64,000 nt of DNA from Olsenella sp. An293 (GTDB taxonomy: Bacteria; Actinomycetota; Coriobacteriia; Coriobacteriales; Atopobiaceae), in NCBI RefSeq assembly GCF_002159495.1, contig NZ_NFIT01000013.1, positions 1 to 64,000 of the forward strand, read 5' to 3'. The notes under the pieces are model-generated. The model saw nothing but the letters and a program-made list of their open reading frames with translations. It ran no database searches and was not told the DNA's origin. Below are positions 16,201 through 32,756 of this stretch, piece by piece (the first letter of the stretch is position 1; every line of letters starts with the position of its first letter). The position numbers were made by a program, and so were the translations under genes.

Positions 16201-16956
16201 TCACACACAATTTTGATGTATTGCCTTTTCGATGACATAGCGGCCGAGCCCCGTTAGCCTCCCAATCTGCTTCAGAGAGAGGCCCGCCTCGGCGAGACGG
16301 TGCAGATGGGTCGCACGCCTCTGCGGTTCCATCGTCTTCAGGCTATCGAGAGACTCCGGCCAGATCGCAGCGGCTGCCGCTTCGATCGCGTCCTCGTCCG
16401 GAACTCTCACCGAAGTCCTCGGGTAATAAGGGGCGGCTTCAGGGTCATCGATAAACCGGCAGAATCCGGGCACGCCTCCGACCATTTCCAGAATCAGGCC
16501 CGTCTCGGATATATCTGGGGTTCCGAGGTACTCGGAATAGCTGCTCCACCTATATGCGCCGGGTTCCGACAGCCCCGCCTTGCTCGGATTGCAGATGATG
16601 TACCTCATCGTCACGAGCAGCTGTTCGTCTGACTGAACGGCGACGCTCGTGAAGCGCGACGAAAACACATGGCCCACGTGCCCCCAACGATCATTGAAAT
16701 GACGCGCGTACGTTGTCGTCACGAGGTGCACGAAAGAACTCAGCTCCCCCTTTGAATCGTCCACAAGAAGGTGCACGTGGTTGCTCATGAGGCACCATGC
16801 CAAGACAGAAACCGAGTACTTCTCCCGCGCGCGTCTCAGCACCTGAAGGAACGCCTCATAGTCGGCGTCGTCCTCGAAGATGACCTGGTTTCCCGCGCCT
16901 TTCATGATGATGTGGTAAAACCCCAGCTCCGACAGCTTCCTCGGTCCCCTCGGCAT
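16201..16956 (-). CDS. REP-associated tyrosine transposase (Y1_Tnp, RAYT)
   Basis: The 251-aa single-domain HUH endonuclease has the paired histidines in MSNHVHLLVD (His60, His62) and the catalytic tyrosine candidate Tyr83 in TTTYARHFN. A C-terminal helix-turn-helix-like tail is present (LSLKQIGRLTGLGRYVIEKA). RAYTs nick and move REP sequences but are usually single-copy and do not form classical IS ends. The ATG at 16956 follows GGGGGAG; an upstream in-frame ATG adds residues of no family likeness. REP pairs flank it in opposite orientation and its stop codon merges into one of them. Related REPs occur elsewhere in the window. Confidence 0.9.
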   Translation of the reverse strand: MPRGPRKLSELGFYHIIMKGAGNQVIFEDDADYEAFLQVLRRAREKYSVSVLAWCLMSNHVHLLVDDSKGELSSFVHLVTTTYARHFNDRWGHVGHVFSSRFTSVAVQSDEQLLVTMRYIICNPSKAGLSEPGAYRWSSYSEYLGTPDISETGLILEMVGGVPGFCRFIDDPEAAPYYPRTSVRVPDEDAIEAAAAAIWPESLDSLKTMEPQRRATHLHRLAEAGLSLKQIGRLTGLGRYVIEKAIHQNCV

Positions 16957-17061
16957 GTCTCCCCCAATCGACAGCGTGCGGAGATTCATACCCAACCCGG
17001 CGAGCACAAAACGATGCCGCCCGCCGGCGGTTCGGCGAGCGGCATCAAACTTTTGTGTTAA

Positions 17062-17106
17062 TTGGGGACTGTCCCCAACGTGCAGCAAATTGGGGACTGT
17101 CCCCAA
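17062..17106. repeat. REP pair at the 5' side of the RAYT gene
   Basis: Cores TTGGGGACTGTCCCCAA lie at 17062-17078 and 17090-17106, each followed by CGTGCAG. The second ends 7 bp before the ptsI stop codon, so the pair also lies in the ptsI terminator position, where the palindromes could end transcription. Confidence 0.85.
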
Positions 17107-17113
17107 CGTGCAG

Positions 17114-21615: not shown

Positions 21616-21691
21616 TGGTGGATCGTCAGGGGTTCGAACCCTGGACCTTGGGATTAAGAGTCCCCTGCTCTACCAGCTGAGCTAACGATCC
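21616..21691 (-). tRNA. tRNA-Lys (anticodon CTT), copy 2
   Basis: The 76-nt cloverleaf has acceptor GGATCGT with ACGATCC, anticodon loop CTCTTAA giving CTT, T-loop TTCGAAC and encoded CCA. It is identical to the copy at 21696-21771, separated by only 4 bp. Confidence 0.97.
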
Positions 21692-21695
21692 AAAA

Positions 21696-21771
21696 TGGTG
21701 GATCGTCAGGGGTTCGAACCCTGGACCTTGGGATTAAGAGTCCCCTGCTCTACCAGCTGAGCTAACGATCC
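21696..21771 (-). tRNA. tRNA-Lys (anticodon CTT), copy 1
   Basis: This gene is identical over its full length to the adjacent downstream copy, a recent tandem duplication. Anticodon CTT reads AAG, the dominant Lys codon in this GC-rich sequence. Confidence 0.97.
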
Positions 21772-25333: not shown

Positions 25334-25354
25334 GGGAGGTTCTTCTCGACAAGG

Positions 25355-25404
25355 CGTCCGGACCCCGCACGTGCCCAGAGCAGGTGCGGGGTCCGGACGT
25401 TTTT
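25355..25404 (+). terminator. Strong Rho-independent terminator of the M42 peptidase gene
   Basis: CGTCCGGACCCCGCAC (25355-25370) and GTGCGGGGTCCGGACG (25384-25399) pair perfectly over 16 bp with a 13-nt loop, then TTTTT. It begins 21 bp after the stop codon. Confidence 0.9.
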
Positions 25405-25581
25405 CCTCCCCAAACCGTCCGGAATCCGCACCTTCAAGAACCACATGCGGCTACCGGACGTTTTTCGATCTCAGACCGTCCTAAACCCGCACGTACGAGA
25501 AGGACGTGCGGAATCCGGACACCCCACAACGAGAAACCGTCCTAAACCCGCACGCCCCCAAGAGGACAGGCGTTCCGGACG
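25355..25581. repeat. Tandem array of four palindromic units with 61-bp period
   Basis: Units start at 25355, 25416, 25477 and 25538, exactly 61 bp apart. Each is a 44-45-bp palindrome with outer arms near CGTCC-GGA and inner arms near CCGCAC/GTGCGG around a variable 12-14-nt loop, followed by a 16-bp linker that starts with a T-run in the first two. The 10-mer CGAGAAGGAC overlaps the loop and inner arm of unit three. A second array of the same design lies at 31802-31940. Together they fill the gap between the M42 gene and asd, which are convergent. Confidence 0.8.
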
Positions 25582-25617
25582 GTTCCAAGGTACCGAGAAG
25601 AACCTCGGCCCACGCCC

Positions 25618-26634
25618 CTACACCAGGTACTCGGCGATCTGGACGGCGTTGGTCGCCGCGCCCTTGCGGATCTGGTCGCCGCAGCACCAGAACGTGAGCG
25701 AGCTCACGCCGTCGGGGGCCGAGAGGTCACGCCTCAGGCGGCCCACCCACACGAGGTCCTGGTCGGAGGTCTCGAGCGGCATGGGGTAGCGGCTCGCGGC
25801 GGGGTCGTCGACGACCTTCACGCCCGGGGCGGCCTCGAGCAGGGCGCGCGCCTCCTCGACCGAGAGCGGGCGCTCGAACTCGGCGGTGATGGACTCGGAG
25901 TGGGAGCGGACCACCGGCACGCGCACGCACGTGCAGTTCACGCGCAGCTCGGGCAGGTGCATGATCTTGCGCCCCTCGTTTTGCATCTTCATCTCCTCGG
26001 AGGTGTAGCCCACCTCATTGAAGCCGCCGATCTGCGGGATGAGGTTCTCGGCGAGCTGGTACTGGAAGGGCTTGCTCTCCCCCACCTCCTCGCCGGCGGC
26101 GACGCAGCGGATCTCGCGCTCGAGCTCGAGCAGGCCCGGCAGGCCCGCGCCCGAGGCGGCCTGGTAGGTGGAGACGACGAGGCGCGTAAGGCCCGCGGCC
26201 TGGTGAAGCGGCCACACCGGCACGAGGCCGATGATCGTGGCGCAGTTGGGGTTGGCGATGATGCCGTTGTGCGCAGCGATGTCGCCGGCGTTGACCTCGG
26301 GCACCACGAGCGGCACGTCGGGCTCGAGGCGGAAGGCATGGGAGTTGTCCACGCACACGGCGCCTCGGCGGACGGCCTCGGGCAGAAGGGCGCGGGCCGT
26401 GGCGTCGTCGGCAGCGCCGAGGACGATGTCGACGCCCTCGAAGGCGTCCGGCTCGGCAAGACGCACGGGGACCTCCTCGCCGCGGAAGGTCACGGTGCGG
26501 CCGGCCGCCACGGAGCGCTCGCTCGCGAGCGGCACGAGGCTCGAGACGGGGAAGTCGCGCTCCTCGAGGCACTGGAGCATCTGCTGGCCGACGACGCCGG
26601 TGGCGCCGAGGATGGCAACGTTCTTCTCGCTCAT
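25618..26634 (-). CDS. asd: Aspartate-semialdehyde dehydrogenase
   Basis: The 338-aa enzyme reduces aspartyl phosphate to aspartate semialdehyde with NADPH. It has the Rossmann start VAILGATGVVGQQM, the active cysteine in NPNCATI (Cys131) and the C-terminal RVPVVRSHSES containing the catalytic His. Its gene is downstream of lysC on the same strand with a REP palindrome in the 67-bp gap, giving the order hom, lysC, asd. The start has GAGAGG upstream. Product branches to lysine/diaminopimelate and to homoserine. Confidence 0.95.
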   Translation of the reverse strand: MSEKNVAILGATGVVGQQMLQCLEERDFPVSSLVPLASERSVAAGRTVTFRGEEVPVRLAEPDAFEGVDIVLGAADDATARALLPEAVRRGAVCVDNSHAFRLEPDVPLVVPEVNAGDIAAHNGIIANPNCATIIGLVPVWPLHQAAGLTRLVVSTYQAASGAGLPGLLELEREIRCVAAGEEVGESKPFQYQLAENLIPQIGGFNEVGYTSEEMKMQNEGRKIMHLPELRVNCTCVRVPVVRSHSESITAEFERPLSVEEARALLEAAPGVKVVDDPAASRYPMPLETSDQDLVWVGRLRRDLSAPDGVSSLTFWCCGDQIRKGAATNAVQIAEYLV

Positions 26635-28059: not shown

Positions 28060-28159
28060 TGTCAAGGTTGACAAGGTAACCTGACGTCATTGTCAAGGTT
28101 GACAATGTAACCTGACGTCATTGTCAAGGTTGACAATGTAACCTGACGTCATTGTCAAC
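28060..28159. repeat. Three tandem 31-bp units with two palindromes each, in front of lysC
   Basis: Units occupy 28060-28090, 28091-28121 and 28122-28152, with a partial fourth running into the hom stop codon. Each holds the palindromes TGTCAAGGTTGACA (28060, 28091, 28122) and TGACGTCA (28082, 28113, 28144). Units two and three are identical; unit one differs at one base. The 31-bp period is three helical turns, so repeated sites face the same side of the DNA. The array lies 27-126 bp upstream of the lysC start, as expected for an operator array. Confidence 0.85.
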
Positions 28160-31780: not shown

Positions 31781-31801
31781 CGAGGTCCTTCTCGCCCAAC
31801 C

Positions 31802-31940
31802 CGTTGTTTTCCGCACCCAATCAATCGACGTGCGGATTCCGGACGATTTCAGCTGCCAGACCGTCCGGTTCTCGCATCCATTCAACCAACGTGTGGATTC
31901 CGGACGGTTTGTGCTCGTAAAGCGTCCGATAGCCGCACAT
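31802..31940. repeat. Second 61-bp-period palindrome array, after thrB
   Basis: Two complete units (31802-31845 and 31862-31906) and a truncated third (from 31923) are spaced 60 and 61 bp. They share the design of the array at 25355: outer CGTCCGG/CCGGACG, inner CCGCAC-like arms, a variable 13-nt loop and a 16-bp linker beginning with TTT. The array lies at the thrB 3' end, so it probably ends transcription. The 10-mer GTCCTTCTCG precedes it at 31785. Confidence 0.7.
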
Positions 31941-32048: not shown

Positions 32049-32756
32049 CTACCCGCCGAGATAGGCCTTGCGGACGTCGTCGTCGACGAGAAGCTCGGCG
32101 CCCGTGCCGGTCTTCTTGATCGTTCCGATCTCGAGGACGTAGGCGCGGTCCGCAACGGAGAGCGCCATGTTGGCGTTCTGCTCCACGAGAAGAATCGTGG
32201 TGCCCGCGGCGTTGAGCTGCTTGACGATGTCGAAGATCTCCTGGACCAGGATCGGCGCGAGGCCCATGGAGGGCTCGTCGAGCATGAGCAGGCGCGGCTT
32301 GCTCATGAGGGCGCGGCCCATCGCGAGCATCTGCTGCTCGCCGCCGGAGAGGGTGCCCGCAACCTGGTTGCGACGCTCCTTGAGGCGCGGGAAGTGCGCG
32401 TAGACCTTCTCGAGCGTTTCGCGGTTCTCGGCGTCGGAGCGGGTGTAGCCGCCCATCTCGAGATTCTCGGCGACGCTCATCTGCGTGAACACGCGCCTGC
32501 CCTCGGGGCACAGCGCAAGCCCGCGCTGGACGACCTTGTGGGCGTGCAGCCCGACGATCGACTGGCCCTCGAGCTCGATCGAGCCGCTCTCGGGCTTGAT
32601 CAGCCCCGCGACGGTGTTGAGCGTCGTGGACTTGCCGGCGCCGTTGGCGCCGATGAGCGTGACGATCTCGCCCTCGTTGATGTCAAACGAGATGCCGCGG
32701 ACCGCCTTGATGGCACCGTAGGAGACGTGCAGGTCGCGCACGGAGAGAAGCGCCAT
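32049..32756 (-). CDS. livF: Branched-chain amino acid ABC transporter ATPase LivF
   Basis: The 235-aa ATPase drives uptake with LivG and the LivHM permeases. It has Walker A GANGAGKST, signature LSGGEQQMLA and Walker B LLMLDEPSMGLAP, with the MGLAPILV variant characteristic of LivF. It begins 1 bp after the livG stop and is the last gene of a five-gene importer locus. Confidence 0.95.
   Translation of the reverse strand: MALLSVRDLHVSYGAIKAVRGISFDINEGEIVTLIGANGAGKSTTLNTVAGLIKPESGSIELEGQSIVGLHAHKVVQRGLALCPEGRRVFTQMSVAENLEMGGYTRSDAENRETLEKVYAHFPRLKERRNQVAGTLSGGEQQMLAMGRALMSKPRLLMLDEPSMGLAPILVQEIFDIVKQLNAAGTTILLVEQNANMALSVADRAYVLEIGTIKKTGTGAELLVDDDVRKAYLGG

Follow-up and report, generated by a model that had tools for sequence, protein, structure and literature searches.

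Dispersed arrays of alternating half-sites in Olsenella sp. An293 suggest a repeat partnership with an AbiEi-like, nuclease-like protein

How dispersed palindromes of bacterial genomes originate, spread and are replaced is an old question, and the partner usually named for them is RAYT. The stretch of Olsenella sp. An293 DNA analyzed here (64,000 nt, hereafter the window) poses it anew: it holds two arrays of palindromes with one strict period. The first-pass annotation had described four hairpins with an exact 61-bp period at 25355-25581, with conserved arms and with loops of 12-14 nt and linkers that vary, and had reported a second array of the same period. Both periods were recovered. TRF returned a period of 61 for each, with scores of 141 (25384-25520) and 143 (31812-31928), and a repeat search in the window gave spacings of 61 in agreement with it. 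The elements of the two arrays are as follows.

25354..25583, unstranded: array 1, with a 61-nt unit and eight half-sites in the alternating order L,R,L,R,L,R,L,R
25354..25400, unstranded: unit 1 of array 1, L 25354-25370, R 25384-25400, spacer 13 nt
25415..25461, unstranded: unit 2 of array 1, L 25415-25431, R 25445-25461
25476..25522, unstranded: unit 3 of array 1, L 25476-25492, R 25506-25522
25537..25583, unstranded: unit 4 of array 1, L 25537-25553, R 25567-25583, inner part of R degenerate
31800..31938, unstranded: array 2, half-sites at 31800 (L, degenerate), 31830 (R), 31861 (L), 31891 (R), and 31922 (L)
25336..25348, plus strand: GAGGTTCTTCTCG, left boundary motif of array 1 with an inverted copy opposite, from the repeat search, genus-enriched
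25594..25606, minus strand: CGAGAAGAACCTC, right boundary motif of array 1, from the repeat search

The half-site L is 17 nt long, CCGTCCGG-NNN-CCGCAC, and R is its reverse complement. Start distances are 30 from L to R and 31 from R to L, with spacers of 13 nt (the "loop") and 14 nt (the "linker"), and array 2 has the same 30/31 spacing. Because arrays start or end with either L or R, a fixed unit of hairpin plus linker is not the point; what is constant is that half-sites follow one another at 30 or 31 bp, in alternating orientation. The periodic inverted pairs of the earlier description stand, but they are better described as alternating half-sites whose two spacers are both constant in length, and the arms are conserved at about 14 of 17 positions but not in the middle triplet, which varies. 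With gene limits from a home-made simple gene-calling script, array 1 lies between a convergent gene (stop 25333) and a gene on the minus strand (25618-26634), which from their translations we take to be an M42-type peptidase and asd. Array 2 also lies between convergent genes (stop 31780, and 32049-32756 on the minus strand). Rfam at gathering scores returned only tRNAs in the window.

Arrays of this kind are dispersed over the genome of the window (G000). A 108-nt array query gave 23 matches in it, and the half-site pattern was found 76 times with at most one mismatch, vs. 2 for the reversed control, and 121 vs. 52 times with at most two. Half-site chaining in 26 stretches of 4-6 kb round the matches joined 113 half-sites, with 89 spacers between them, into 24 arrays, and a second chaining with wider limits again yielded 24. 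The repeat family read into the window thus does have further arrays in the genome. Linkers measured 14 nt in 51/51 cases and loops 13 nt in 37/38. Measured against predicted genes, every array was intergenic, with a 9-nt overlap of one array and a gene end; 12 lay between convergent, 10 between tandem and 2 between divergent genes (11, 11, and 2 in the first chaining), and 22 of the 24 adjoined a gene 3′ end on one side or both.

Spacers that were at least 90% identical were concentrated within arrays (13/62 same-type pairs, vs. 10/1,879 between arrays of G000), and such a pair was present in 7 of the 17 arrays having two or more same-type spacers. This concentration demonstrates tandem duplication of the 61-nt unit, and growth by unit duplication, proposed from the window, is supported by it. 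As no empty site could be matched to a filled one with a clean junction, movement was not seen directly. Across six genomes, neighbor distances at the fetched loci were exact in 361/398 cases, and distinct spacers within a genome had a mean identity of just 0.36-0.51. Nine spacings deviated by more than 3 nt, five of them by +10 or +11, one by +21, and the others by +4, +18, and +27, a small number that is suggestive of helical phasing of the half-sites.

The period is kept in relatives, being 61 in G008 and G019, mostly 62 in G021 and G044, and mostly 61 in G002. The last three have a half-site of their own, GTGACTTT-NNN-CGAG. The sequence GTGACTTTNNNCGAG was counted 57 times in G044, 52 times in G002, and 56 times in G021, vs. 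0-4 times in 28 other genomes searched. The pattern GTGACTTT-NNN-CGAG had these same counts of 57, 52, and 56 in the three genomes; G043 had four matches, G013 had one, and the remaining 26 of the 31 genomes had none, and its reversed control gave one match over all 31. Downstream of asd, several congeners had different palindromes at the same place (by eye, 16 of 29 loci printed), among them G016 and G006, with a related half-site at a period of 71 (by eye). When three alternating half-sites were sought at the 29 asd loci, steps of 61/62 appeared in G000 and G021 only, with steps of 47 in G018 and 58 in G011. At asd and at two further pairs with both flanking genes in common, the same site carried different array sequences across species; such sites were hardly more numerous than chance would give by a rough estimate. 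An array in Atopobium sp. UBA1382 (L105) lay at a similar place and was closely alike by eye. As a side observation, the repeats downstream of asd (L168-L196) were palindromic and unrelated from congener to congener, as if successive families re-used the site.

Comparison of array-adjacent genes across genomes revealed one gene that lies between two arrays in G000, G008, and G019. In G000 it is situated outside the window:

G000:C23:47741-48787: partner gene, encoding a 349-aa protein

The repeat-family reading of the window was supported but incomplete, as it had viewed the elements as hairpins and had no sight of a cognate gene beyond the window. The homologue in G044 lies between two GTGACTTT arrays. 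Of 31 congeners, 29 had homologues, between one and five each and 73 places in all; G013 and G018 had none, profile search included. The left and right flanks (700 bp) of 70 of these 73 members were aligned with each other, G044:C23 (seen separately as L205), G010:C17, and G016:C18 being left out. The alignment exceeded 40 bits in 54/70 members, vs. 0/27 control loci at asd (maximum 33.1; 27 of 30 loci, three under 3.9 kb being skipped) and 4/203 controls with left and right flanks from different members, one of which, at 291 bits, probably reflects a shared neighboring gene. In the 16/70 members where the signal was absent at 700 bp, flanks of 1,450 bp brought 5 (L251, L255, L256, L261, and L276) above the control maximum of 44.1. 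A cruder flank test by 14-mer seed counts, too noisy in G+C-rich DNA, placed 18/86 loci above the best control, which was the array-bearing asd locus of G021. The period of 71 seen at asd was also found round a G006 member. In three members, L251 (G045), L259 (G005), and L264 (G010), the tandem repeats of the flanks were short, at 13-18 bp rather than about 61.

The repeat and the protein co-vary. We defined the repeat signature of a member as the 11-mers common to both of its flanks, and the 56/68 members with at least four entered the pair counts. Orthologues from different genomes with at least 75% protein identity had three or more signature 11-mers in common in 15/22 pairs and fewer in 7/22. 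Sharing fell to 9/103 pairs at identities of 0.60-0.75, 1/173 at 0.45-0.60, and 18/1,202 below 0.45. Paralogues within the same genome shared a signature in 2/40 pairs, which differs significantly from the orthologues (Fisher p = 2e-7). The five members of G011 each had different flank sequences. The closely related members L205, L253, and L276 (from G044, G002, and G021) all had GTGACTTTNNNCGAG in their flanks; L253 and L276 were sisters in the tree, and the G044 member was 83% identical to L276. The tree omitted 2/70 members with in-frame stops, and alignment A1 additionally omitted the long-branch rows L297 and L302. As judged from these comparisons of sequence, the repeat follows the protein and not the genome. 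Since paralogues mostly sit in different repeats and orthologues mostly in the same one, a pairing of protein and repeat is required. In 14 close pairs dN/dS was 0.11-0.31, and the partner proteins are thus under constraint.

Outside the genus, nine of 29 genomes had homologous loci, 16 altogether; 10/16 had flank repeats that scored above 50 bits and 6/16 had none, and 5/16 had in-frame stops in or beside the match. The best match in a plasmid collection was WP_148332043.1 of Collinsella aerofaciens, annotated as hypothetical (34% identity over 78%). Six palindromes flank its gene, four to one side and two to the other, with the half-site TGTCTCGATCTGTAAC at distances of 43 and 37/38. A search of 72,556 records gave at least 29 places for the upstream array, its own among them, all in this one record. 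Four 50-kb stretches of C. aerofaciens held 38 half-sites with at most three mismatches, vs. 5 for the reversed control, two of the stretches being without any. The record that carries L327-L330 (NZ_OY725717.1, C. aerofaciens "plasmid 6", 899,693 bp) contains housekeeping genes, namely those of ribosomal proteins and DNA topoisomerase I together with groL and trmD, and appears to be part of a chromosome. A Tsukamurella protein annotated with an AbiEi-family antitoxin domain matched the C-terminal third, and its gene lies between copies of a 78-bp repeat (88% identical); the stretch upstream of the gene occurs at three places in the record; the second Tsukamurella homologue had no such flanking repeat, so that one of the two examined has it. 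A protein-alignment scan of viral contigs gave 28 pattern matches and no relative, and phage records gave none.

What kind of protein is this partner? Pfam, NCBIfam, PHROGs, and solved-structure profiles yielded no convincing match for the family, whose proteins have about 350 aa. PADLOC models of AbiEi matched within the first 200 residues, PDLC02228 in 50/66 members (best 3.5e-12), and the Pfam profile AbiEi_1 matched in just 3/66 (best 7.5e-4). In the last third, E212, R216, Q230, D246, E260, D262, G263, K266, and R288 were invariant among 14 aligned sequences, from Coriobacteriia and from Tsukamurella, which represent two classes; D246 was conserved at 90% or more in alignment A1. Alignment A2 took 10 of the 16 proteins from outside the genus and left out L319, L312, L314, L316, and L323 (stops) as well as L310. 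Residues E212, D246, E260, D262, and K266 form the pattern E..D..ExDGxxK, which we take to be that of the PD-(D/E)XK (DUF559-like) nuclease superfamily. The likeness to DUF559 and other Vsr-like PD-(D/E)XK proteins lies in this pattern; no Pfam match exceeded the cut-off here. The best DUF559 score was 15.0 bits vs. a cut-off of 20.6, on the Collinsella protein only, and DUF559 was not listed among the matches of the 66 genus members or the 10 others. Since DUF559 stayed below threshold and solved-structure profiles were empty, the nuclease assignment is drawn from the motif pattern, by which the C-terminal domain appears nuclease-like. Pfam gave no Y1 match in the partner protein. No AbiEii-type toxin was recognized next to the gene in G000 or C. 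aerofaciens; the neighbors were Aminotran_3 and MFS in the former and, in the latter, an amidohydrolase and a 235-aa protein that matched no Pfam family.

The AbiEi-like region offers a comparison for the strict spacing. According to PMC7319586, the S. agalactiae AbiEi binds a pair of 23-bp inverted repeats separated by 3 bp, and the promoter of Rv2827c holds two inverted-repeat pairs, each with a gap of 13 bp, that are spaced 4 bp from each other. The figures given there for Rv2827c add up to a step of 63 bp with a gap of 13 bp, vs. 61-62 and 13-14 here, and because of this resemblance the arrays look like AbiEi-type operators that have been tandemly extended and scattered over the chromosome. 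An AbiEi-like region is common to this system and to the AbiE type IV toxin-antitoxin system, whose AbiEi-type antitoxins have inverted repeats as operators (PMC7319586). The present proteins differ in having an extra C-terminal nuclease-like domain and no recognized AbiEii neighbor, and in sites that flank the gene left and right and recur at dozens of places elsewhere.

We think it probable that the arrays are DNA sites of their cognate AbiEi/nuclease-like protein, in a partnership that resembles REP/RAYT but has no RAYT. Such an arrangement suggests a new kind of protein-and-repeat partnership, and a literature search of open-licence papers gave no pointer to such a pairing. Under this explanation the AbiEi-like region would bind the half-sites as double-stranded DNA, in register and on one face of the helix, and the nuclease-like domain would nick or cut near bound sites. 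Repair after cutting would then duplicate units within arrays and copy arrays to new intergenic places. Each protein lineage has its own half-site sequence, and gene-free copies of the array are found at dozens of intergenic places. The sequences themselves show the anatomy and dispersal of the arrays, the duplication of units, the flanking of the gene, and the co-variation of repeat and protein; DNA binding, nuclease activity, and a part in spreading are inferred. More tentatively, and as a reading that we regard as plausible rather than probable, this could be a self-spreading repeat system in which AbiEi/nuclease proteins recognize, cut, copy, and lengthen their own helically phased operator arrays, each lineage and each paralogue having its own satellite-like family. 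Such a system may extend past the Coriobacteriales to other Actinomycetota (Tsukamurella, one of two), and it may account for palindromic families without a transposase. The pairing of a protein family with its own repeats in many species gives AbiEi-type proteins that lack a toxin partner a possible role, and, if true, it would explain why neighboring species have different families of intergenic hairpins. It also makes the birth of arrays, changes of specificity, and function directly testable, since the protein is small and one of the gut isolates is named.

The alternative that survives best, though we consider it unlikely, is a non-mobile system of regulation or chromosome organization, in which an AbiEi-like regulator acts on arrays that are scattered operators. 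The strict spacing and the purifying selection on the protein agree with it, as do the paired inverted repeats of similar step to which AbiEi proteins bind (PMC7319586). Against it, arrays adjoining a 3′ end in 22/24 cases, with just 2 in divergent settings, are poorly placed for promoters; the units duplicate, the arrays are wholly different between lineages, and the invariant nuclease-like motif would be left without a role.

A function of the repeats as bidirectional terminators, or as hairpins at mRNA 3′ ends kept for that job, is a weaker candidate and in our judgment improbable. The stem of unit 1 is completely paired and is followed by TTTTT, as in a terminator. The first-pass annotation had called it a very strong terminator. 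The hairpin is very strong (-46 kcal/mol, z = -7.8), but this holds for the first one only: five others that were folded had z-scores of -4.3 to -1.7. Unit 2 is likewise followed by TTTTT but has non-complementary middle triplets, and within array 1 such a T5 follows two of the four units, with variable stem stability. A run of T is absent after most units, and a terminator scan, which allows loops of 3-8 only, found none. The first hairpin of array 1 probably ends transcription as a side effect. Convergent settings also speak for termination in G000, where they made up 12/24 arrays (11 in the first chaining), vs. 6/54 for neighboring genes within the window taken pair by pair (p = 0.0004 for 12/24). 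In five other genomes just 19/73 arrays were convergent (one locus counted twice; 2 overlapped a predicted ORF), and the convergent excess is therefore not general. Nor would a terminator need exact 14-nt linkers, serial units, or lineage-specific sequences.

Pairing of the variable middle triplets bears on the same alternative and on how the sites would be recognized. Full complementarity was compared with a random rate from half-site pairs taken from other loci. G000 had 5/43 loops (0.12 vs. 0.10 at random) and 10/54 linkers (0.19 vs. 0.10) with complementary triplets, and G002 had 0.20 vs. 0.13 in loops and 0.26 vs. 0.18 in linkers. Beyond these two genomes all eight comparisons were at most 0.04 above random: G008 (loops 0.62 vs. 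0.58, linkers 0.65 vs. 0.65), G019 (0.31 vs. 0.42, 0.32 vs. 0.39), G044 (0/52 loops, 0.00 vs. 0.13; linkers 0.15 vs. 0.13), and G021 (0.08 vs. 0.10, 0.06 vs. 0.08). With the variable triplets paired at or near random, a function as RNA hairpins was rejected, a weak excess remaining in G000 linkers and in G002. From the same near-chance pairing we infer that the sites are recognized in double-stranded DNA and not in a folded strand, the excess in G000 linkers and in G002 counting against this.

Less probable again is that the gene is a passenger, landing in or recombining between arrays that something else has spread. Recombination between arrays would also place repeats on both sides of the gene, and flank repeats are missing in some members. 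What tells against a passenger is that paralogues share their repeat in 2/40 pairs and orthologues in 15/22, the pattern that paired proteins and repeats would give.

Hardly any weight is left for ordinary REP/BIME elements spread by a RAYT (a HuH, Y1 transposase). As described in PMC3733652, REPs are palindromic, intergenic, alternating in orientation, and near 3′ ends, as the present repeats are, and G000 has two Y1_Tnp genes. These two RAYTs carry other repeats, however, TTGGGGACTGTCCCCAA and TTGACAATATAACCTGACG, and the half-site with at most two mismatches was present at 0/12 RAYT loci in five genomes (about 1-1.5 kb on each side), with isolated matches only at three mismatches. G019, which is 99% complete, had 29 half-site matches and no RAYT match, and a profile of 53 G000 linkers (45 distinct) lacked a constant GTAG-like tag. 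A likeness between the two partnerships remains: in REP/BIME/REPIN elements with RAYT (TnpA-REP), a gene is likewise flanked by co-varying cognate repeats (PMC3733652, PMC3116915, PMC8266576), and the repeats described here are dispersed, intergenic, in inverted pairs, and cognate to a gene that they flank. They differ from REPs in their half-sites of 17-20 nt, their strict steps of 61/62, 71, or 80-81 nt, and the absence of a GTAG-type tag, and their partner protein differs from RAYT in having no HuH/Y1 match. PMC3733652 also mentions CGTC-tagged REPs, a super-family of dispersed palindromes said to be without a dedicated transposase; CGTC is an unpaired end tag in that description, whereas here it lies inside the half-site, and in one lineage set only. 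CRISPR-like or attC-like arrays were dropped on anatomy, as arms vary between copies and there are no cassettes.

Other repeats were noted near the arrays. The motif AGGTTCTTCTCG occurs 78 times in G000 (reversed control 1), e.g. at window positions 25337, 25594, 28663, and 57961, and 33-162 times in 24 congeners vs. 0-8 times in 15 genomes outside the genus. By eye its copies lie in terminator loops (CCGAG-GTTCTT-CTCGG), in coding sequence, and at array borders, and CGAGAAG-type sequences adjoin several partner-family proteins. Many of 75 contexts were coding or terminator loops by eye, and a DNA-uptake-like or array-boundary role for AGGTTCTTCTCG was for this reason set aside. A RAYT-like gene (Y1_Tnp 16597-16917, minus strand) lies with TTGGGGACTGTCCCCAA hairpins at window 16201-17113, and a tandem 28-mer is found among these hairpins at 17060-17113, the copies on the other side being seen in translation only; gene and hairpins form a separate pair of REP/RAYT-like type. 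At window 28060-28158 a tandem 31-mer, TGTCAAGGTTGACAATGTAACCTGACGTCAT, is present in 3.2 copies and resembles the flanks of the second Y1_Tnp gene of G000 (C34:111178-111507). An exact 80-bp tandem duplication at window 21616-21771 holds two identical tRNA genes.
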